Below are positions 7,433-64,000 of a DNA stretch of 64,000 nt, piece after piece; within the stretch, counting starts at the first letter, position 1, and every line of letters begins with the position of its first letter. This DNA comes from Jaapia argillacea MUCL 33604. Lineage: Eukaryota > Basidiomycota > Agaricomycetes > Jaapiales > Jaapiaceae. Where the stretch lies: NCBI GenBank assembly GCA_000697665.1, contig KL197711.1, positions 134,104-198,103 on the forward strand. The letters run 5' to 3'. The position numbers and the translations under genes are program-made. The notes under the pieces are model-generated. The model was not told where the DNA came from. It searched no databases and saw only the letters and a list, made by a program, of their open reading frames with translations.

Positions 7433-8933
7433 ATGTCCCAGGGCGAAGCTTTACCACCTCTTGCGCGTGGCGGCCACACGCTGCATTGTACGAGATGTGT
7501 AGCAGGTTTACCTTCATCACAAACAGAGATCGATTCATCGCGGTGAGTCCTTGAAGAGAATATCGGAAGGGAAGGCTGAGGCTGGTTGTAGCTTGGCTTT
7601 GGCGTTTTATTGCCTGGGATCTCTCGATCTCCTCGACACGCTGAATGCGAAGATTTCAGACGCTGATCGAGAAAGTTGGAAGGAATGGATATGGGAGCAA
7701 CAAGCGCGTTCGTAGCCTCCCTTGTCCCTGACGTTCTCAAGGGTGCATCTGATGCCTTCACAGATGGGAAGTACGGCACAGGTTTCAAGCCTAGTTCGTA
7801 TATGACTCCAGAAGACGCCTCTGTGAACGATGTGAGTGAGTTCCTCGAAGGCTCGGTGACATTTGTTTCGACCGGCATTTTAGGAATATTCGGAGAATGA
7901 TACTCCTCATCTAATCATGACGTATACTGGAATGCTATCGTTGGCAATCCTACGAGATAATTTCGATAAACTGGATCGTCCGGGAATCATCAAGTTTCTG
8001 CGATCCTGTCAGAGGTCGGACGGAAGGTGATATCTCAACTATACACCCCCACGATCCTAGTCGCTCATCCTCACATCTACCAGTTTTTCAAGCATCCCAG
8101 ATAGCACCGAATCTGATTTACGGCTTGTATATTGCGCTTTCGCAATAAGTACTTTCCTGGACGATTGGTCTGGCGTAGATATTGCCAAGTCCGTGACATT
8201 CATCAAGCGGTGTCGAGTGAGTTCGGTCAATATTATTTCATGGAGGTGTTTTCATTGCTCCACAAGACTTACGAAGGGGGTTATGGCCAAGAGCCATGCG
8301 CCGAAGCTCAAGGTAGAGATTGCCATCTATTTGTTTTTCTCCACGAAATGCTTACCGTTCTAGGTGGGACGACGTACTGTGCACTGGCTGCCTTACATCT
8401 TGCGCCAAGCCTCCCCAACGATCCTTTGCCTCTAACACCAAGGGAGCGCCATCAGACTGTTCGATGGCTAATTCAGAACCAAGATGATTCGGGTGGTTTC
8501 AGAGGTCGCACAGGAAAGGACGCCGATGCGTGTTATTGCTTCTGGTGTGGGGCATCCCTTCAGGTGGGACTCTATCTTTCCGAACCTTTCATCGTTGGTG
8601 AATCTGAACTTCTCGTCACAGATCCTAGGCGTTCCAGATGTCCTCGACCCCATTGCCCTCGCTGCATTCTTGGCGCGTTGTCAGTTCAAATATGGGGGTA
8701 TCGCCAAGGCTCCTGGTGAACATCCAGGTCAAGACTTCGTTGATACGTCCCTCGAGCCAAGCGCTGACCCCTTCTCTCCAGATCCTTATCATACCTACTT
8801 GTCCCTAGCGGCTTTGTCAATTCACCCCCCACACACAAGTGACACGACCTGGAAGTTGGACGCGCTGGATCCTCTGCTTAACGCTAGAAGCGCGACAGCT
8901 GCATGGGCTAGGGAGAAGATTCCGGCACAGTAG
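7433..8933 (+). CDS. CDC43: Geranylgeranyltransferase type I beta subunit
   Basis: The beta subunit of GGTase-I binds geranylgeranyl diphosphate and, with the shared alpha subunit, prenylates CaaX proteins such as Rho and Cdc42 in the cytosol. Nine exons close in phase: 7433-7542, 7592-7707, 7764-7831, 7884-8026, 8084-8216, 8267-8312, 8364-8563, 8622-8727, 8782-8933 (357 aa; human 377). Family marks in order: SSRLALAFYCLGSLDLLDTL, HLIMTYTGMLSLAILRD, ESDLRLVYCAFAIS, GGTTYCALAALHLA, the zinc-site segment GRTGKDADACYCFWCGASLQ (Asp and Cys ligands) and HPDPYHTYLSLAALSI with the zinc-ligand His. The last intron is 54 nt, a multiple of three, so retaining it would keep the frame. The 5' boundary of exon 3 is the least sure junction. 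Confidence 0.92.
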
Positions 8934-9068
8934 TCGAGCACACTGGCAACTGAGGACGGTAGTATTTGCATTAATATATGGGGAAATCAGCATTAGCGAT
9001 AAACATATAGTATCCTCCATGTCTGCGGCATTTACTGAAGTGAGGCGCCTTCAGAGACGCCGTGAAAA

Positions 9069-11579
9069 TCATTCTACCCACTCTAAGAGGGCCTCAAGTT
9101 CCTCGCCGTCCGGGAAAGCAACATTTCGGAAGGGTCGATGGGTTGGGGCATCCGGGTATAGGTAGTAGTCCGTAGGTTGTACATCCTCAACACCATGCCT
9201 GAAAATTATGAAAAGCGGTTGGTCAATGTTATTGGCCCAGCGAAAGAATCGGGGACTCACACTTCGCGTATGTGAAGTGCCAAGTTGCGGAAGTTTCTCA
9301 TCGTCCTGCACCGACTACAACACCAGTAGCTCGAGCAAGGTTTCACTTCCTCATCAGAATCATCATCCCTGACGAGCATCTTTGCGAGTATCTTCCGTCG
9401 CCCGAAGAGTATAGCCCAATCGTGATCTTTCACAGCAGTACCTCTGTGGTACCTCAACATGTGCCATATCTAAACGAGAGTCACTCATTTGTTTTCAAGC
9501 GAAGCATATGCGATGTACTCACAGCTGAAGCCCACGTCGCCACACGGGGGCCGTTGGCTGGACAGATCCCGCACAAGAACCTATGGTCTAAGGCGTCCAT
9601 ATCCTTTAGCGTAGTCACCTCAGGGTCCATGCCACAAACGTCAAGTATGAAGTCTCGGGTAAGGTTAGACGCCTCTTGGTGGTAGGTGAGTTTCGTCCCG
9701 TCAACGTCCCACGGTTCGCCTCCAAGAGTTTCCCTTTGCCTACAGAAAATGATACATTCCGGCGAATGCGGCGAGTCAACGTCGCATTTCGGATGTCGTC
9801 TGTCAATGGCCGTCATGCATTTGTGAAAGAGGACTCGCGGGTAGGAGATAATGTCGTGGCATATATGACAATCGAACCATGTGGTTGCGAGATCCAAACA
9901 TGCCGTGTCAGGTCCATCGGTGTCATTGTCGGATGGTGCACCCTTGACCAAACGGACCAAGCGACGTTCGATACCCTGTCGCCACTGAGTCTCTAGTTCC
10001 GGGAGTTGTTCAAATATGGGCATGAAGTCGTCAAAGGTCACATCGACATCGGAGGGCAGTTCGATAATGTCTTTGAATGGTTTCATATTGCAAACGTCCG
10101 CCGGACTGGGGGAGAATCTAGTAGGGAGAAAGGTTTCCACATAGCTCTGCACAAACTGTTTAACAATAGTTTGGCGAGGTATTAGGACTTCGGTCCGGCG
10201 GATATTGATACGAAACTTTCGAAGAACTTCCATCTTTGAGATGAGGGGAGCTTTGATGTTGTTCCATACTGTGGATGATATGGTTAGTGGAGTCAGGTTC
10301 TAAGGAAGTTGAGTTATCGAGGAAGATGCCCACTTCTTTCTGTCAGTTCCTTGGGCTGATTAACCAAAGGGTCATCTATGAAGATCTCCGGTGACCTGGT
10401 CAACGCGAATAATAATTCCTCGGAGTATCCCAACCCTTCCAACCTGTCCGAAATACTGAAAGATGCCACCTCAGTACGGGTGAGCGCATAATCCAGTGGT
10501 CGGGGAACTTACGCAAGGGCTCTTGTATTGTAGGCTTCCTGACGTTGCTCTTTTCGCTTTGCAGTTTGTTGGTCTTGCCACTCGAATGCAAGGAGTGCAT
10601 GCTGCGATTGAGTGCATCAGCGACCAGCGCTCTGTGGATAATTTCAACGTACACCACTGATGATTTGGAACTGCGCTTCCCGCCGGGTGATATACTCGCT
10701 CAGAGCAGATTCGTTTCCCACAAGCGGGGAAACCTCTTCTGTAACTTGTAGAATTTCGCTAGCTAAGTATACCGTCTCGTCGTAGCCTGGAGTCGCTTCA
10801 GCAGCGGAAGTGGTGATGAAGGAATGAGACCTACGTTTACTCAGCATATTGGTCCACTTCACAGTATCCAGAAGTCTATCGGCAACGTCTTCTGGAAGCA
10901 TATCAAAACATTCTGAGGCATCCACGAAGCTGTTCTCCGTCCGTCAGGGCGTGTGGCTGGAAGTAGAAGATGGATCGAAGCATACTATTTCTTCAGGCAC
11001 TTTTTGCAGGAGCGAACCCGAGCATACCATGCGATGGTCTGTACGCTCGGCGTCCCGCAGTACTACAGAGAAAGTCAGTAGCGGTGGAACACAATAGACG
11101 CCCGACGAACATAACAATGGGGATAGAAGGCGAGGAGTGCGTATTGAGCCTCAGTGAGATCAGATGGGCATGGTGGAAGGTCGGGGACATTTCCCAAGAC
11201 CTGCTTCCAAACCGATCTAGCTGAACGGCTCATTAGAGTGCTCCTGAGAGTCTTCGATGTCCAACTTAGGCGGAGTAGATCCATCGGCATTAGCTGACCA
11301 AAAATCTAAGAGATACGAAGCTTATAAGCATATGTAGACCTGAAGGGATCGAACAAGGCCCACCTCGAACAGGATGTCCAAAGGCATCTCTGGGAGAAGT
11401 TGCAGCCTTCCCTGTCTCTTCCTGCTCATTCCTTTGGCCACGGCTGCGCCAGTCCTTTTCTTCTTCCGAGACCGGTTTGACTCGGGCGCATTGTTGGCGT
11501 CTTTTGTATCCTTTTCATTCGCATCAACGGAAGGCTTTGGCACCGCCTTCAAACGCGTAGATCGACGAGGTTCTGCCAT
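9069..11579 (-). CDS. F-box protein with C-terminal C2H2-like zinc finger (copy 1)
   Basis: F-box proteins choose substrates for SCF (Skp1-Cullin-F-box) ubiquitin ligases. Nine exons fit: 11579-11364, 11305-11111, 11062-10986, 10929-10653, 10601-10513, 10455-10334, 10268-9523, 9469-9261, 9198-9069 (686 aa). A basic N-terminus (RRSTRLK) is followed by the F-box across the exon 1/2 junction (LPEMPLDILFE, then IFGQLMPMDLLRLSWTSKTL). Next come Cys pairs (YCG, CKKC), a middle domain with WFDCHICHDIISYPRV, and a C-terminal C-x2-C-x12-H-x4-H pattern (CSRCRTMRNFRNLALHIREV, then His). A paralogue lies at 37185-39738 with the same exon phases, but this copy lacks about 38 residues, one whole exon of the other. 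The target is unknown. Confidence 0.88.
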
Positions 11580-55305: not shown

Positions 55306-55878
55306 ATGTCATCCGTCGTCGCTTCAACCTTGACCTCTCCAAGTTCTGGGAGCTCCTCAATTCATCCCACGTCATCGTCGAAGGACGTCGTTCGCGTCGT
55401 GTGCGCATCTGTGTTCGGATTTCGTGCGCCCTTTGACCGTTCTGTTCCGGGACAGAAGTTTGACGGCGAAATCTTCTGTCACTTACCAGTGTGCTTTGTC
55501 GCGATCCTTTCGCTCTTCCTTTGTTCATGTTGGTGCAAGAAACGAAATCGCCGCGCAGGAACGACGCCGACGGGGAATTCGTGTCTGGGCAAGTATTCCG
55601 TTCCCTGTTGTGTTGTTTCAGAGTTTAATATGTTTGCAGAGAACGCCATGTCTGGATTTAGGACACTTACCTTTCCACCTCAGCCTACTGTGGATCCGAT
55701 GAACCGTCCTCCACCACCTCCACGATCCCGGTCCGAAGTCCCTCAACACGGATACCAATTATCAGACCTACCTCCTCGAGGCCCTCGAGCTTCAAGTCGG
55801 TTCTCGACCTACAATCAGCGATTACCTGTTTATTCTGAACATCCGCCTATCGAGTCGGCGGTGGAGCAGCCGTTATGA
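55306..55878 (+). CDS. Small membrane protein with LPxY tail, subfamily A copy 1
   Basis: A 190-aa frame. After a Ser/Thr-rich N-terminus come a hydrophobic segment (KDVVRVVCASVFGF) and a clear membrane span (LPVCFVAILSLFLCSCW) closed by KKRNRR, so the tail should be cytosolic. The tail is proline-rich (FPPQPTVDPMNRPPPPPRSR) and ends FSTYNQRLPVYSEHPP; LPVY is an LPxY-type PY motif. The paralogue at 57538 has an intron in the middle. Here the matching acceptor is visible but no donor fits its phase, so the former intron is read as about 20 extra codons or the model is incomplete. Family unknown. Confidence 0.6.
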   Translation: MSSVVASTLTSPSSGSSSIHPTSSSKDVVRVVCASVFGFRAPFDRSVPGQKFDGEIFCHLPVCFVAILSLFLCSCWCKKRNRRAGTTPTGNSCLGKYSVPCCVVSEFNMFAENAMSGFRTLTFPPQPTVDPMNRPPPPPRSRSEVPQHGYQLSDLPPRGPRASSRFSTYNQRLPVYSEHPPIESAVEQPL

Positions 55879-57537
55879 ACTGCCTTGAAGTGATTTGATT
55901 TGTCGCAATTTTGCAATGCGACCCTTGTTTCCAGCACGCGCCTTCTGGATTTCGGAACTTTTCTGGACCTTCTTCTCCTCAAATGATGTATTTTCGTTTA
56001 CTGTTTGTGTTCCTCTACATCCTGTGTCCCTTTTTCGTCTCGCGTCCATCCGCAAAGAAAACTTCGCGGGGTGATTGGATGAAGCCCCACAAGCTGAAGC
56101 TCTTCTGTGCTTCCTCCATCTCAACCGCCTCTTCGGGGGCACATATCCAAACTGGTATACTTGGGCTGAGCTTATAGCTCATCACGTTTTACCGCTCGTT
56201 CGCATTCACCCCCCTTATCCCGGATTCGCGGTTGTCCCTTTTGAGCGCCGCATAGGCCCCGTCCAATTTGTCCCCCTTGGACCTACCCAGTTCGTTGATG
56301 GAAGAACGCTGAGTAGCTGTGCCACTAACGGTTCGAGTTGTCTGTCCAACCGGTGCTGACTTCGTCGTCTTGACCTTATACCTAACATCATTGCTCAGGC
56401 AAGCTGCGCCGCTCCAGGAATCTCCGGCTTTCTCAAGAAGTGTGACGACGCTGATCAGCAGCTGCGGGCTCTGGCTGCTTCGCGGCAATCCTTCTCCGAC
56501 ATCTCCACATTCTTCGCAGTTCCGAGTCCCGACCGTTCTTGACACACACCGTCACTGCTACGCTCAGCTATCGTTTGCCCGATGGCCACCTTTCAAGGAA
56601 CCGGATTCTTTATCATAAGCTTACAGTACTCTGTCATTCCTCACGGCGCCCGCGAAGCCATTGATCATCCCAGCCAACTGACTTGTACTCCGTCCAAGAA
56701 TGTCAATACCCAATGCCGAACTTGCTCCATACCCAGCGCCTCATTGCCACAACAGCGTATGGCTGCTTCAGAGGGGATCTCAAGGGAAAGGGTTTTTTTA
56801 TGTCGGACAGAGCACGGAGGAATAAATTGGTTACATGTTCTTTCTTGTTCAAGGTTCGAGGTGGGCCAATAAGCATGCCATGTGCTCACCAGCGGAATGA
56901 TGCAGATATTGATGGCCTCGACCTGTTATATTTCTGCCGTCCTATCCAAGATAATTTCTTGCATGGGCGTGGATTCTGTCCCGTGAGGTTGACAAGGATT
57001 TCTCCCTCCCGCCGGGTTGAAGCTTGCTTTATCAAAGCCGCATTCTTCCCATCCCTGACAGCCTAGCCAATTATAGCTGAAACTGGACACTTATCGAGGC
57101 CCCCATCTGACAGGCCGCCGCACATTCCTTCAATGCCCATCGACTGAATCCCTACTCATCCTCGAACAAGAACAAGGATGAGAGAAGCCCAATGGCAAGT
57201 GCGTTCTTGATTACATAAGTTCAGGTTTGCCATCCCGTTACTTCTTCCGTACCACTCTGCTATCCCCTGATTACCTTCTTAGGATAGCGATAACGGTATC
57301 AGCATCCGTCGGTTGCGAAACCTCCAAATTATCGAACCCAACAAAAACTTTCCGATGACAGGTCCTTGGAGCGAGCGTCAATTGCCATGGCGAATTCGTT
57401 GCACTCAGCCTTCGCGAGGCCGGCGGGATAATGATCGCAGGATCTTTCTACCATCAAATATTTTAATCCAGCGGAGGTTTGTATGTATAAAAGTAAGGAA
57501 GCGCGCTCACGCTGGCCAACATAGAGGCACCGCTGGC
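55879..57537. other. Inter-gene part of the array with a possible relic
   Basis: At about 56385-56540 the plus strand reads SGFLKKCDDADQQLRALAAS, similar to SNFVEKYDDWLLRPLAALNQ in the frame at 58666-58995. The word AACTGGTATACTTGG occurs at 56149 and again at 58445. This shows the duplicated unit is longer than the membrane gene. No intact gene is seen. Confidence 0.45.
57280..57450. repeat. Upstream part of ~2.2 kb tandem duplication, unit 2
   Basis: Counterpart of 55080-55250, about 2.2 kb downstream in the same orientation and before the second subfamily A gene. Confidence 0.7.
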
Positions 57538-58183
57538 ATGTTCGTTGTTACTGCTTCAGGGTTGAGCTCTCCGATTTCTGAGAGCTCCCCGATCCGTCCT
57601 TCTGAGAGCTCTCCGACCCGTCCTGCTGCTTCGTCGAAGGAGATCGTGCGTATTGTGTGCGCAACTGTGTTCGGCCTCTGTGTGTTCTCTTGTTGCTCTA
57701 CTTCGGAATACTATGTTGACAAAATAATTTATTGGGGCGGCACAGTTTGTTTCGCAATCATTATTTCGCTTATCCTATACTCACGCTGGCGCAAGAGACA
57801 AAGTCACCGTCGAGCCCACGGTGAAGGAGGGGCGCACTCTAGAAATATATTTCCTGGTGAGGAATCTATTCTCTTCACTTCATCCTAGAGTTAACACCCT
57901 TGTAGAGGGAGGGTCTTCTGGACTTCGGGACCGTTCATTTCCACCTCAGCCTGATGTCGAACTCAATACCCTTCCCGCACAACCAATCCGACCCCTTCCT
58001 CGAGTCCCTGAACACGTTCACCAACTCTCCAGTCCACCTCCTCGATTTTCAATTCTACCGCCTCGGTTTTCAACTCGCTTCTCAGCGTATTCTCAACGAT
58101 TGCCAGAGTACTCTGAAATTCCAGCCCCTGGGTCGGAGGTTGAGCAACCTTCAGGAACTTCCTTCCTTGATGTGCCTCGATAG
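57538..58183 (+). CDS. Small membrane protein with LPxY tail, subfamily A copy 2
   Basis: Exons 57538-57856 and 57906-58183 give 198 aa. The N-terminus repeats a Ser-Pro unit (SSPIRPSESSPTRPAASS). Two hydrophobic stretches follow (EIVRIVCATVFGLCVFSCC and GGTVCFAIIISLILYSRW), with KRQSHRR after the second. The tail is proline-rich (SFPPQPDVELNTLP, LSSPPPRFSILPPRFS) and holds FSAYSQRLPEYSEIP, aligned with the LPxY site of copy 1. Conserved order SSKE/D-hydrophobic, membrane span, FPPQP, RFS-Y-QRLP-x-YSE and EVEQP shows common descent. The presence of PY motifs suggests binding to WW domains of a Rsp5-type ubiquitin ligase; this is inference. Confidence 0.68.
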
Positions 58184-58665
58184 CCCTCATCCATCCACTT
58201 TGCTGCTTGCTTAGAATTTCCTTCGGACTTCGTCAAGTATTCCCTCAATAAATGTACTTTACCTTGTAGCCCTTAGTTACATGCCTTGCCTCTCCCTCTG
58301 TATCCTCGTTTCTTTTTGCCCTTGCTCAAGCTGATTCCTCCTATCACAACACATATACGACTCAGCCGTGGATCGTGATCTGTCAGTTCGCAGTCACGCT
58401 CGTCACATACTTATGCTTCGCACGCTGCCAGGCGAAACCTGCCAAACTGGTATACTTGGAACATAGCTTCTTCCCCACGTTTCATGTTCTCGTTCACAAC
58501 TTATCTTCGACTCCGTGGTCTACACTTTTGGAGTGTCGTTTTCTCCGCGCCATTTGTCCTACTTAGCCCATTCAAGTTGGGTTGACAATCAGATGGCTAT
58601 GCAGTGAAGCTCCAAAAATGCGGTGTTAGTTCAAGGCTACATTTTGCTGTGCTGCGCATGGCAAA

Positions 58666-58995
58666 ATGCCAGCGTCGGAAAAGCATTACGTCGTCCCAAT
58701 TGTTCTCCAATCCGTCGCCGGCTCCAAGGACCAGCCTGGATTCAAGATGGTGGATCACCGCAAGCTGCGCCGCAAAGCGTCCAACTTTGTAGAAAAGTAC
58801 GATGACTGGTTGCTGCGGCCCCTGGCTGCTTTAAACCAATACTCCTTCATGTGTTGGCTCAATGCTCCCTGGCGATATCTTGTCCGTGAACCATACCAGC
58901 CTTCTCGGTGTTCGCCGTCAGCTCGGCCAAGCTACCAACCTATCCCCACCTCAATCTACCCCCATCCTAGATCTACCCAAACCTTACCGCCATGA
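58666..58995 (+). CDS. Possible 109-aa protein, stop overlapping the next start
   Basis: The frame MPASEKHYVVPIVLQSVAGS, KASNFVEKYDDWLLRPLAAL, then RPSYQPIP looks like protein and has a distant match at about 56385-56540, which argues against pure chance. Its TGA (58993-58995) overlaps the ATG (58992-58994) of the next gene. It may be a separate gene, an upstream reading frame, or an exon of a longer transcript. No family known. Confidence 0.35.
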   Translation: MPASEKHYVVPIVLQSVAGSKDQPGFKMVDHRKLRRKASNFVEKYDDWLLRPLAALNQYSFMCWLNAPWRYLVREPYQPSRCSPSARPSYQPIPTSIYPHPRSTQTLPP

Positions 58996-59540
58996 CCGTC
59001 CTTCTATCAGCTCGCGTTGTGGTCATCGATTCATCAATTGCTACCCGAGACCAACCTCCACCTCCCGACAAGCCGATGATCACCATCGCTAAAGGAATTG
59101 TATTCGCAAGTACGCTCTACTTATCCTGCCTCACTCGGAAAGAGTATTGAAACAATGTCTCAGTAATCGTTTTCACCATCTTTGCTGTCATCTTTGGCCA
59201 CGCTCTCTGCCGTAGGGTCTTCAGAAGGCGAAGATCGGTTTGGGTTTGCCCACTCCGAGTCGTTTGGGTCGTGTTTAAACCCGATCTTTCGAGTACTCCG
59301 ACACGCCCTCTAACCACTCGTGAAGTAGACCCAGAAGTAGACCCAACAGCCCCACTTCCACTCTATTCACTCGGTCCACAATACGAGCATGCTGTCAATC
59401 CTCCTCCGCAATACACAGAAATAGCGAAGCCATTGCCCACAGTGGCACCTCCTTTGGGTCGAGGGAGAGCCTGTGAGATGGAACTGAATGCCTTTGCTGG
59501 TGAGGGACAGGCATCAGGGAGAGTTGGGCAGATGGTCTGA
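58992..59540 (+). CDS. Single-span PPxY membrane protein, subfamily B copy 1
   Basis: Exons 58992-59109 and 59164-59540 give 164 aa. A 39-residue N-terminal part precedes the span IVFAIIVFTIFAVIFGHAL, closed by CRRVFRRRRS, so the tail should be cytosolic. A shared box PLRVVWVVFKPD follows. The tail holds LPLYSL, then NPPPQYTEIAKPLP with a PPxY motif, and ends GRVGQMV. An alternative start at 59076 (MITIAKGIVFA) matches the start of the next copy; I chose the longer form because its N-terminal length equals that of copy 3. Likely a PY-motif adaptor or substrate of a Nedd4/Rsp5-type ligase; not shown. Confidence 0.7.
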
Positions 59541-60654
59541 GAACGCCTCAGAGACTCAGTTACCCCATTTCCGCAAGGTTAGTTCATCGTTCAAGAAAAT
59601 GAGAGTGCTTCCGCTCATCGAACGACCCAATTCGGTATCTTCGTCATCTATCGCCGTCTTAGTTCCCTCTCCGCATTCCATTTGCTCTCTTCGCTTTCAC
59701 CTTCCCTGCTTTCGATTCATCTCTATCGTTCTGTTGTCCCTGTTATCGTAGTTGTAGCATTTTTCCTTTCACGCAATCACACCAAGCACGTAACCCATCA
59801 TCGCATAATTTATTGGCTATTCATCCCTCCGTGTTGTTATTGTTGTCGTTGGCGCTCTGCTCAGTCCATTGATCGGACCTATAGCGTCCCCTCTACTCTC
59901 ACATTGTTGTGATGGATGGCATCGGACTCCGTAGTATAGAGAACCGGTTAGGCATCGTTCATGCAATGTAGTACACTTTCGCAAGGTATACGAAAAAATC
60001 TGCAGTGAATCACGCCCGCGAAGTTTCTGGGCTTTTCGGGAGATCGGCGCACGCAACTCCGAGTGCCTCCCTCCTTCCAAAGGGATAGATAAATGGATGA
60101 TACATACAACGAGGTCGTCGACGATAAGATTGTGATGATTGGCACTTTCCGGGAAATTTTAATTAACCTTTTTGCTCAGTTTCTCATATGTAATTTTGTC
60201 CGAAAGTGGCGCTGCACAGTCCTTGCCATCGTCCTTGGCAGGCTTGCCTTACTAGTACTTATCCTAGTACTCGACACTGGAAGGCTGCGTCGCTCGCCTA
60301 TACATACCTCAGAAGCTCTACCGTCTCGTTTCTGGTTCGCTTGGCAGCTCTTGCCGGGAGCCGGGTTATGACTAGCAATGTTGCTCAGATGGGCTGTGGC
60401 CTTTGCATAATCATCCCAGGATAGCTTGATGTACCTACCCATGTAGATCCCTGCTGCGGGTTCTGGTTTCTTTTAACCAGCCTCTACCAGCATCAGGTGT
60501 CAGATCCCATCACCATCCCCGTCGCTCAAGCTGAACCACAGATCCGTCCATCCATAGGCTCGCGGTGACCTTGACCGGATACACCTTCGTTCATACGCCC
60601 CGACTTGTAGTCAAATTCTTCTCCTGCATACGTCTCCTCCCAGTTGAGAAGACC
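59541..60654. other. Inter-gene spacer of subfamily B
   Basis: No supported gene. Pyrimidine-rich text near 59690-59870 with many ATC and GTTGTC words resembles parts of 61300-61500 and 63230-63330, so the 3' flanks seem to be duplicated with the genes. Confidence 0.45.
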
Positions 60655-61110
60655 ATGATTGCCCTCGCTGAAGGAATTGTATTCTCAGGTGCGTCCCACT
60701 CCATCTTAACCCCCGTGAGGACAGGATGAAATGATATCATATTCCCTATAGTGATTGCTTTCGCCGTTCTCGCTGGCGTTTTCGGCCCTGCTATCTTCCG
60801 TCGGATGACTCGAAGTCGAAGACCGGTTTTCCAACTCGGAATCTTTTTCATCGTCCTCACACCCAATGTCGCGAACACTGCAATTGCTCGTGAGGAACAC
60901 CACGGCGGACACTCTACGGTTTCATTACCAACATATGTGCCTGGTCCCCAATACGAACATACTGCGCATCCTCCTCCGTCGTATGAGGAATTACCCAAAC
61001 CGTTGCCTGCGGCAGCGCACCCCTCGGGTCGGATGAGGGTGGTGGAGATGGGGCTGGATCTCATTCCTGGTGAAAGGGAGAGGGAGGAAAGAGTTGCGCA
61101 GATGGTTTGA
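60655..61110 (+). CDS. Single-span PPxY membrane protein, subfamily B copy 2
   Basis: Exons 60655-60688 and 60752-61110 give 130 aa. The start MIALAEGIVFS aligns with MITIAKGIVFA of copy 1. The span is VIAFAVLAGVFGPAIF, followed by RRMTRSRRP. The tail has LPTYVPGPQYEHTAHPPPSY, i.e. LPxY and PPxY motifs 12 residues apart, then EELPKPLP and the end EERVAQMV. The frame stays open for about 40 codons before the ATG with similar character, as if an earlier start had been lost. The VWVVFK box of the other copies is replaced by a hydrophobic GIFFIVLTPNVAN. Confidence 0.7.
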
Positions 61111-62429
61111 GACCATTCTGCCTTATACCCTGATCCTCGAATGGTTAGTCACCATTTGATTGAGCGATATAAGCCCTTCCACTCATCAGAATTATCAGAT
61201 ACCTGTGGATCGATGCACCACTTTCATCTAACACTACGTGTCCACGCCGCTTTCATCGCGGGTACTCGACCGACGTGCACCCCCATCGTACATCCCACTT
61301 AATTCGTCTTCGTCGCTATCGTCCGCTCTCACCACCATCGTCATTATCGACCCTTGTTATCACCATTTGCTTATCGCCTCTCCGCAATCACGACTCGCTA
61401 TCGAATCCCACCAAACCCATAATCAACAATCGTATTTTTTGTCCATCGTCGCTACTATCGTCCGCCTGCCGCCCATCATATTTCTCCGCCGCCGGGCATA
61501 ACACATTATCTTTCAACTTATTGGCCGTCCGTCTGCGCATGCGCTCTCGTGGCGATCCGACCTTCAGAGTCTATTGACTGGACTCAACACAATCTCAGGC
61601 TACTCTTGTTTTCCTTTCTCCTGGTTTCCGTTACGACTTTAGACTACCGCAGTAGATGACGTGGGGTAGCATAGAAGACTGTTAGACGTCCAAGGCTGTG
61701 CCTACGGGTGATACGACATCCTTTCTTGTGGATACGAGACCATTCACGATTAATTTACGATGTATTCTGAGGTTGTCTGAATTTGTTGTAGCTTGACATG
61801 AGGCCACGGGTTCGCCGCTGGAAGATTCCGCAACACGTTGTTCTTAGCCGCTGACCTCCCCAGCCACGTCTCCTCCTGTCTCTGCGCTACCAGGGAACAA
61901 TCTGAATCTGCTCCCTTGAAACATAGAACACTCCTTTGTAACAATACTCCGGCCAACAACTTTCCATCCTGGGCAAACGCAGGTGTTTGAGCACTGCAAT
62001 CGACTCGTCATCTATCTTCCACTGTCAACAAGAAAAAACGTGTTTACTGTTCTCTGCATCGCCTTGCCATGCAAGGGTTTTGTCACTTGCCTGAACGTTC
62101 CACTGGACATATCTAGTGCCATGGATGACTAGATGGCCTCGATTCGGCCCTTGCGGCAACCTGAGCACCACCCTCGGCAGACTTCTCTTGGCCGCTCTCT
62201 AATCAATGCTCTGCAACATTGATCTTCGTGGAAGGGTGGAGGGTACGTTCACTGCTAAGCAGTGGATGGTGTTTTGTAATGTCTTTACACCACTCGCCAC
62301 ACCACTACTTCAAACCCCAAACCACATATCGGACCCACTACTCTCTACTTCCACCCCGCACTCGACTGGAACCTCCACATCTCATCTATACACAACTGGC
62401 CCATCGAGCACCTCCTATTCTTCGACACC
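61111..62429. other. Inter-gene spacer of subfamily B
   Basis: No supported gene. Contains the second copy of the pyrimidine-rich 3' text (about 61300-61500). Confidence 0.45.
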
Positions 62430-63028
62430 ATGGATATGGATATGGTCATTTGCGTCGCCCCGATCCTCGTCGCTCGTAACACCACCAATACTACACCACA
62501 AGGCCCCACCAACACTCTCTACGTCGTCTCAGCAGCAGTTGTCTTCACAGGTTCATCTCTCAGTATCTGGAGACCAAAAGTGTGCACTTCCGACTCACCT
62601 TCTTATTGTTCGCAGCAATCATGGTGGCATTCATAGCAGCGGCCTTTGGTCACGCCGTGTGTTTTCGTTTAAGAGCCGAGCGACGGAGGCAAGATTGCCC
62701 TCTGCGAGTCGTTTGGGTCGTGTTCAAGTTCGACTTTCCGGACATCAGCGCTATCAACGCGGCTCGAACACCGGACGATGGTGCTCATGCTGAGCCTACC
62801 ATCCCAACAACTGCTCCTCCACCACTCTATCAACCGGGGGGCTCACCACCTCATTACGATTTTGCTACTCTTCCTCTCCCTCAATATGCGGAGACTGAAA
62901 GTATCGCGAGGCCGATGGGTGCTGTTACGCAACCTGTGGTGACTTTGGAGTTGGTTGTAAGGGAAGAGGATGTCGTCGATGTTGGGAGGAGGAGGGAGAG
63001 GGAGGAGCAAGTCGCTCAGATGGTGTAG
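62430..63028 (+). CDS. Single-span PPxY membrane protein, subfamily B copy 3
   Basis: Exons 62430-62550 and 62616-63028 give 177 aa (donor GTTCAT). The N-terminus has two N-x-T sites (RNTTNTTPQ), which fits an outside or lumenal position. The span VVFTAIMVAFIAAAFGHAVC is followed by FRLRAERRRQ and the shared box PLRVVWVVFKFDF. The tail contains PPPLYQP, SPPHYDF and LPLPQYAE, three PY-type motifs, and ends REEQVAQMV as in its sisters. It is the longest and most PY-rich copy. Proposed role as WW-domain ligand at a membrane is inference. Confidence 0.7.
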
Positions 63029-64000
63029 ACCATTCAGACCATCATCGAACAGTTCTTCTCCTCGTTGATTAAGGTTCGTCAATGAGCTCCTTCGATGGCC
63101 GAGGTACTGATCGAAGGCGTGACAGATATTCGTATGATTAATGTTTATCACTCATCTATCAGTCGTCGGGGCTGATTGTTGTATGATACCGCCCTCGGTG
63201 GGTTCGGCTATGACCCGCCCTGGCCTGCCATAGTGTATCATCCATCCATCCTCGTAGTCGCTATCGTTATCGCCGTCCACCATTGTTGTCGTTGTTTTAC
63301 CCCAATTCCGGCGCTCATCATTGCCCTTGTTGTCCACCCATCTCTCTATCCCCGTGCACCTGTTGATGTATAGACTCGCTTGATGTCTTTCATAGTGTTA
63401 GTTGAAGTCCTCCTCCCTATCTCCTTCTGTCCGTTACGACTACCTATCTTTCTTATGTCTCAGTGAATATCTTACGACGTATAGCCCACTTGAATATGCA
63501 TCATGCTTCTGAAATATGGTTGTGCACAAATTCTGGGCGCATTTTGGAGGAAACGGAGGGAATGATGAGCGACTCCGGAGTTACACGTGGTCACTGATGA
63601 TCGCGATATTTAATTGGACACACAAGACCCCATCTCTCCTCCTCGCACCTTGGATACTGGCACATTCACCACCTTGTCTCAACATGGGCCATCGTCTTTT
63701 GTCTACTTTTCATTTTATTATTCGCATGGCTATATCTTGTTCGTATCACAAACTCCAGGCGAAAGCGTGTTTACTTGGTCAAATTCACCGCCCCGGCGTC
63801 TAAGGTCGCACGTCCAACTACATAGGACAGAGGCTGTAGTGTTGAAAGATTTTCGACGATCACTTCCCCAGCCTCTGTCTTTGTCAAAGGCACATTCCGA
63901 ACTCTTTCAAATTTGGTCGGTGGAAGCTGTGCATCCTCAGCGAATATACTCTGCTTCCTGTTGACCTACTCTCGCGAACTTGACCCTCCAATCACGACAT
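63029..64000. other. Right end of window, no supported gene
   Basis: The 3' pyrimidine-rich text recurs near 63230-63330. Frames after 63500 are open for up to about 115 codons but lack the span or PY motifs. The array may continue beyond the window. Confidence 0.4.

Follow-up and report, generated by a model that had tools for sequence, protein, structure and literature searches.

Among described proteins, the closest counterparts of the genes treated here are the yeast Rcr1 and Rcr2, together with the animal proteins Commissureless (Comm) and PRRG. Rcr1 binds the ubiquitin ligase Rsp5 through cytosolic PY motifs (PMC5578492), and Rcr1/2 are listed as 'possibly' adaptors, alongside Bsd2, Tre1/2, Ear1 and Ssh4 (PMC2810449). 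Comm and PRRG carry an extended PY motif of the LPSYDEAL type, with an acidic residue after the Tyr, and show low conservation outside the motifs (PMC5578492). Homology searches easily miss single-span PY adaptors, since constraint is largely limited to the motif and the span. We describe a tandem array of six genes in the fungus Jaapia argillacea MUCL 33604, detected in and just beyond a stretch of 64,000 nucleotides (contig KL197711.1, positions 134,104 to 198,103; henceforth referred to as the window) that sits on contig C3 of the 43.7 Mb, 95-contig genome assembly. Each of the six is predicted to encode a protein in which a short segment precedes a single membrane span, and a basic flank leads into a tail bearing [L/P]PxYxE towards its C-terminus, to which g1-g4 add further PY motifs. 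We give an even chance to the reading that the array is a locally expanded, diverging set of RCR/Commissureless-like Rsp5 membrane adaptors. No description of a tandem array of this kind was found among the titles and abstract openings listed from the open-licence literature.

Six genes in tandem

A preliminary description of the window had recognised three adjacent genes (g1, g2 and g3), and a reading of the flanks brings the detectable members to six, with b1 and b2 upstream of g1 and g4 downstream of g3, all on the same strand between 55306 and 64565 in window-extended coordinates. On the plus strand, g1 (58992-59109 and 59164-59540) encodes 164 residues in one open frame, with a span at about residues 32-53 into which an intron falls at residue 40 (59110-59163, plus strand, 54 nucleotides), the motifs LPLY (104) and PPQY (120) and the end VGQMV. 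Also on the plus strand, g2 (60655-60688 and 60752-61110; 130 residues) has a short N-terminus, an intron of 63 nucleotides, LPTY (70), PPSY (86) and the end VAQMV, which it shares with g3 (62430-62550 and 62616-63028, plus strand; 177 residues), where the intron has 65 nucleotides and the motifs are PPLY (109), PPHY (118) and LPQY (128). The three introns are all GT-AG and in phase 1. The preliminary description thus holds for the three adjacent two-exon, single-span genes, for their common phase-1 intron (inside the span and demanded by the frame), for the Arg-rich flank after the span (net charge 0 in the up to 15 residues before it and +6, +5 and +4 in the 15 after it, in g1, g2 and g3) and for the VGQMV/VAQMV ends. 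The PPxY/LPxY motifs are also present, in numbers of two or three per protein (2, 2, 3) and not of one to three, and the QMV end, which had been listed among the shared features, proves to be a feature of one branch, found in three of the six members.

The two upstream genes, both on the plus strand, are read as three exons each: b1 (55306-55423, 55490-55588 and 55640-55878) has 151 residues with LPVYSE near its end, and b2 (57538-57679, 57746-57856 and 57906-58183) has 176 residues with LPEYSE. The downstream member, g4 (L009:1004-1121 and 1180-1565, equivalent to window-extended 64004-64565, same strand as g1-g3), starts 4 bases beyond the window end and encodes 167 residues with APPY, LPEY and PPKYEE. 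The first exon measures 118 nucleotides in g1, g4 and b1, 121 in g3, 142 in b2 and only 34 in g2.

Kinship among the six was assessed by testing pairwise similarity against 2000 block shuffles that keep local composition. No shuffle reached the scores of g1/g2 (z 25), g1/g3 (z 11), g2/g3 (z 10) or b1/b2 (z 17), and on such scores g1-g3 and b1-b2 are certain as groups; g1-g3 are true paralogues, with E values of 1.2e-20 to 5.3e-5 in genome searches. The downstream gene shows affinity to either branch: the g3/g4 score was equalled in 8 of 2000 shuffles (z 3.7) and that of g4/b2 in 1 of 2000 (z 5.5), its weaker pairings being those with g1 (66 of 2000), g2 (91 of 2000) and b1 (72 of 2000). A single family of six would rest on g4 as a bridge, on gene structure and on the common end motif. 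Comparison of the units by BLASTN found coding stretches common to g1/g2, g1/g3 and g2/g3, and in b1/b2 an upstream stretch as well, a pattern consistent with tandem duplication.

The genome was searched with exons of g1, g2, g3, g4 and b2, without b1, and candidates were limited in number, so that the counts of relatives are lower bounds. Exon 2 of g1 (three first-look candidates scored) matched, at E ≤ 10, only itself, g2 (1.5e-20) and g3 (6.9e-14), and the searches with g2 and g3 agreed, adding three weak matches. Counting those from the b2 and g4 searches, five weak matches beyond the cluster (E 0.056-2.41) were obtained and rejected: among frames of at least 25 residues on either strand, no central frame had a span and a PY motif together. 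The match at C1:1382324 overlaps a 405-residue frame that has PPxY and no span.

Splice sites were placed from the sequence. The mid-span intron is demanded in g1-g4 because reading through it hits a stop codon within the intron (g1, g2) or shifts the frame (g3, g4). In b1 and b2 its presence is inferred, because its 66 nucleotides are a stop-free multiple of three and the frame stays open spliced or not. The whole b1 frame is open unspliced (190 residues), neither of its introns being demanded; in b2 the second intron is demanded by the frame and the first is not. Mid-span splicing in b1 and b2 is probably to be favoured from the donors, which lie at the same codon and phase, and from the lower similarity of the putative intron, with 33 of 66 positions identical as against 43 of 60 in the flank before and 41 of 63 in the flank after it; among the residues that read-through would add, 4 of 23 are alike. 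The second intron of b1 (55589-55639), if real, is best read as GC-AG (GCAAGT...TTGCAG), and the g3 donor, GTTCAT, looks weak by eye. For g1, five open two-exon models were considered, and the mid-span phase-1 junction was preferred as the only one common to all six genes. This junction precedes the first basic residue by 16 residues in g1, g2, g4 and b1, by 17 in g3 and by 13 in b2.

The surroundings of the array offer a few further observations. Two short frames beside it (63601-63825 and 58270-58566) combine a hydrophobic stretch with basic residues and have no PY motif, being either truncated relatives or chance, and an exact match of 18 nucleotides joins 56147-56164 and 58442-58459. Downstream, two frames of 563 and 550 residues (L009:4066-5757 and 8339-9991, minus strand) with several hydrophobic segments look alike by eye and have no Pfam match above the cut-off. 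Within 4387-57885 of the window, two of 20 long unspliced frames (b1 and b2 included) match Pfam at E 0.001, one to LRR_14 (below its cut-off) and one to WD40-type models.

Tails, ligases and the C-terminal valine

All six proteins have one strong hydrophobic span. The 19-residue Kyte-Doolittle peak is 2.69 in g1, 2.45 in g2 and 2.56 in g3, with the intron junction inside the span, and g2 has a second, weak hydrophobic segment (1.45). The tail is predicted to be cytosolic because the net charge is 0 before the span and positive after it, from +2 to +6 over the six members (span edges set by hand, and just 4 residues ahead of the span in g2). These tails of about 100-120 residues, each with one or two lysines, contain 11 L/PPxY motifs in total where about 0.5 are expected, a number that none of 20,000 shuffles reached. 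Taken singly, g1-g4 are each enriched (P ≤ 0.0025); b1 and b2 carry a single LPxY apiece and are not (P 0.12 and 0.10). Seven columns are invariant over the six members (F38, P105, P111, P119, P121, Y123 and E125 in g1 numbering), and the PxYxE formed by P121, Y123 and E125, part of the aligned C-terminal [L/P]PxYxE, is the sole invariant run; P119 is aligned in all six, yet precedes an insertion in b1 and b2.

Selection on the array was approached through the ratio of non-synonymous to synonymous divergence (dN/dS, Nei-Gojobori), calculable in five pairs only: 0.44 for g1/g2, 0.37 for g1/g3, 0.41 for b1/b2, 0.54 for g1/g4 and 0.27 for g3/g4, with dS from 0.87 to 3.33 (1.83 in g1/g3) and saturated synonymous sites in g2/g3. 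If the array were decaying or neutral, it would consist of duplicates retained by chance whose PY motifs are a by-product of Pro-rich tails. The fast divergence, the short N-terminus of g2, the possible relic fragments between genes and the PY counts of b1 and b2, singly within chance, could all be read in this way. We nevertheless regard it as improbable: dN/dS is below 1 in every calculable pair, the frames are open in all six models, the splice position is kept, and the PY motifs of g1-g4 far exceed what tail composition predicts.

Candidate partners for the tails exist elsewhere in the genome, where Rsp5-type genes with three WW domains and a HECT domain were found at C42:5534-7419 and C7:369817-371733. 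In the latter region (C7:369817-375018) the gene is followed by more WW/HECT matches (372442, 372836-373454 and 374704-375018), which suggests a tandem partial duplicate. If the adaptor reading is right, the tail PY motifs would bind the WW domains of such an Rsp5/Nedd4-type HECT ligase, the span and N-terminal segment would pair with particular membrane cargo, and the ligase would ubiquitinate both cargo and adaptor and so direct them to endosomal or vacuolar sorting. Cargo could then diversify as duplicates keep the docking motif and change in span and N-terminus, and the array would be a local gene family by which the fungus diversifies the cargo choice of Rsp5. The earlier proposal of a clustered adaptor set is supported in part: the clustering of single-span PY proteins with tails predicted inside, the presence of Rsp5-type genes and the invariant PxYxE fit it, and the adaptor function itself is a proposal drawn from sequence.

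The same features are also compatible with proteins that are clients of Rsp5 and not adaptors, that is, small surface or secretory-pathway proteins turned over via their own PY motifs, for which one or two tail lysines would suffice for self-ubiquitination. We consider this unlikely, though worth serious attention, on the grounds that no known ectodomain or signalling domain scores above the Pfam cut-off, that up to three PY motifs in so short a tail would seem to exceed the need of a single client, and that the closest family, RCR, is the one entered as possible adaptors in PMC2810449.

A further alternative would give the tails a WW partner different from Rsp5 and a part in some other process, cell-wall deposition for instance. 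Genome-wide there are 35 WW matches at E ≤ 0.001, many of them as arrays on C16, and Rcr1 activity in chitin deposition is reported to be independent of Rsp5 (PMC5578492), a point that counts for this alternative as well as against adaptors. The C16 region (372021-399108; L055-L057) contains several long frames of WW-like repeats of about 40 residues (PLPAGWEM...PYFFNSKTRVxTFEDPRTHPELL), with a run of N within L056; they could be a lineage-specific WW-repeat family. Most of the C16 repeats in the stretches inspected carry Phe at the second Trp. Such a replacement in a WW domain is expected to weaken PY binding, and we hold this alternative to be very improbable.

The second feature of the tails is the V[A/G]QMV end of g1-g3. 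Followed by a stop codon, this pattern occurs six times in the genome, three of them being g1-g3; the other three close frames that lack a PY motif (7, 7 and 54 residues long), where a spliced upstream exon is possible. The reversed pattern, used as a control, gave 4 matches, so that single matches carry no meaning. Between g1 and g2, a VAQM-like stretch (window 60379-60393, in the frame 60194-60424) may be the relic end of a copy or chance. A C-terminal Val is reported to act as a signal for forward transport that Sec24 isoforms or GRASP proteins recognise, and is no guarantee of fast export (PMC3779271, PMC4701983); the PDZ domain of GRASP binds a critical valine in the C-terminal tails of animal cargo (PMC4701983). 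The genome has a GRASP gene (C3:1316972-1317751), and three of the six members (g1-g3) place a terminal Val on a predicted cytosolic tail, as in the C-terminal valine cargo of GRASP/COPII. Export is the likeliest role we see for the QMV end, a view held with low confidence: the terminal Val would be read by COPII or a GRASP PDZ domain, by which the QMV branch would leave the endoplasmic reticulum and early Golgi efficiently. Extended to the whole array, this would give a modular adaptor bank, in which PxYxE docking is fixed, fast-diversifying spans and lumenal segments select cargo, and the QMV branch is routed to a different compartment. We find the complete scheme distinctly unlikely; if true, it would mean that membrane-protein turnover can evolve in a lineage-specific way through duplication of single-span adaptors and not by way of arrestins.

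Relation to RCR and other described families

The preliminary description recognised no described family, which is correct insofar as a Pfam scan of the six members gave nothing above the cut-off, and doubtful in view of RCR (PF12273; cut-off 27.8 bits), whose yeast members Rcr1/2 it had itself cited as functional analogues. This family is the only one matched by more than one member, by spliced b1 (18.5 bits, E 0.0036, model 4-52) and g1 (14.8 bits, E 0.05, model 3-49) at nearly the same model positions, and none of 10 block-shuffled copies of b1 and g1 matches it. The RCR-type layout of a single span, then basic residues, then a PY motif in the tail is found in all six. Membership is not proven, because other single sub-threshold matches, such as PMP1_2 with b2 (E 0.0028), are equally strong. 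The kinship of the cluster with RCR is plausible; the array is not categorically new and is not classed as an RCR member.

The genome search with RCR also found two sub-threshold loci unlinked to the cluster, on C27 (20.7 bits) and C1 (17.7 bits), scores that are not independent, the loci having been found via RCR and the scan having included a third exon placed by eye. Both match RCR over nearly the same stretch of the model as b1 and g1. These two RCR-like genes (L053:2074-2573, with PPQY, and L054:2784-2356 on the minus strand, with LPPY) have a signal-peptide-like start (by eye), a short ectodomain, a phase-1 intron within the span, a basic stretch and a PY motif (LPPY on C27, PPQY on C1). 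From the junction to the first basic residue there are 16 residues in the C1 gene and 23 in the C27 gene. In four of their 12 pairings with cluster members, under 50 of the 1000 shuffles equalled the score (C1-g1 17, C1-g2 24, C27-b1 28 and C27-g3 48).

Apart from the single PY counts of b1 and b2 and the chitin activity of Rcr1, several results weigh against a family of RCR-like adaptors. Direct similarity between g1-g3 and b1/b2 was significant in none of the six block-shuffle comparisons, and g4, b1 and b2 have no QMV end. The RCR cut-off is reached by no member, four of the six (g2, g3, g4 and b2) give no RCR match, and the unspliced b1 frame has no Pfam match, so that its RCR match is lost. 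Likewise, when the C27 and C1 genes are paired with the cluster members, the remaining 8 of the 12 comparisons fall short of significance at the 5% level (1000 shuffles). SKG6 (PF08693), sought genome-wide as a reference for where introns fall, gave no match, which leaves the background frequency of phase-1 mid-span introns uncontrolled. Finally, yeast Rcr genes failed to act like Comm/PRRG4 on human Robo1 in flies (PMC5578492).

Where similarity fails, candidates can be linked by PxYxE combined with the place of the intron (in phase 1, within the span and in most cases 16 residues ahead of the basic stretch), and this combination could serve as a search key for other genomes, given its background rate. 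Two other comparisons gave no relative: a scan of viral contigs returned 20 pattern matches with none among them, and a profile search of solved structures had 0 matches.

Against this background the array can be set beside several known systems. With the animal proteins Shisa, CYYR1, WBP1 and VOPP1 it has in common that one span is joined to PY motifs on the (here predicted) cytosolic side (PMC5578492). Unlike Shisa and CYYR1, its members lack a Cys-rich N-terminal segment, none of the six spliced translations having more than one Cys ahead of the span, and a CYYR1 trace in Pfam is restricted to one member (E 1.7). The yeast membrane proteins Ssh4 and Ear1 are adaptors of Rsp5 (PMC2810449), the role proposed here, and differ from the cluster members, in which Pfam finds no SPRY domain. 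The likeness to Comm and PRRG, which is one without demonstrated homology, lies in the single span, in an L/PPxY motif whose Tyr is closely followed by an acidic residue and in the little that is conserved elsewhere: LPSYDEAL and LPSYEQAV in Comm/PRRG (PMC5578492) compare with PPSYEE and LPEYSE here, and Glu stands two residues after the Tyr in all six members. In contrast to PRRG, the cluster members have no Gla domain match in Pfam. Like Rcr1 and Rcr2, they are short single-span proteins with PY motifs on the (here predicted) cytosolic side, and in spliced b1 and in g1 the region from the span to the PY motif aligns to the RCR model. They differ from both in scoring below the family cut-off, in the QMV ends of three members and in their arrangement as a tandem array of six genes.

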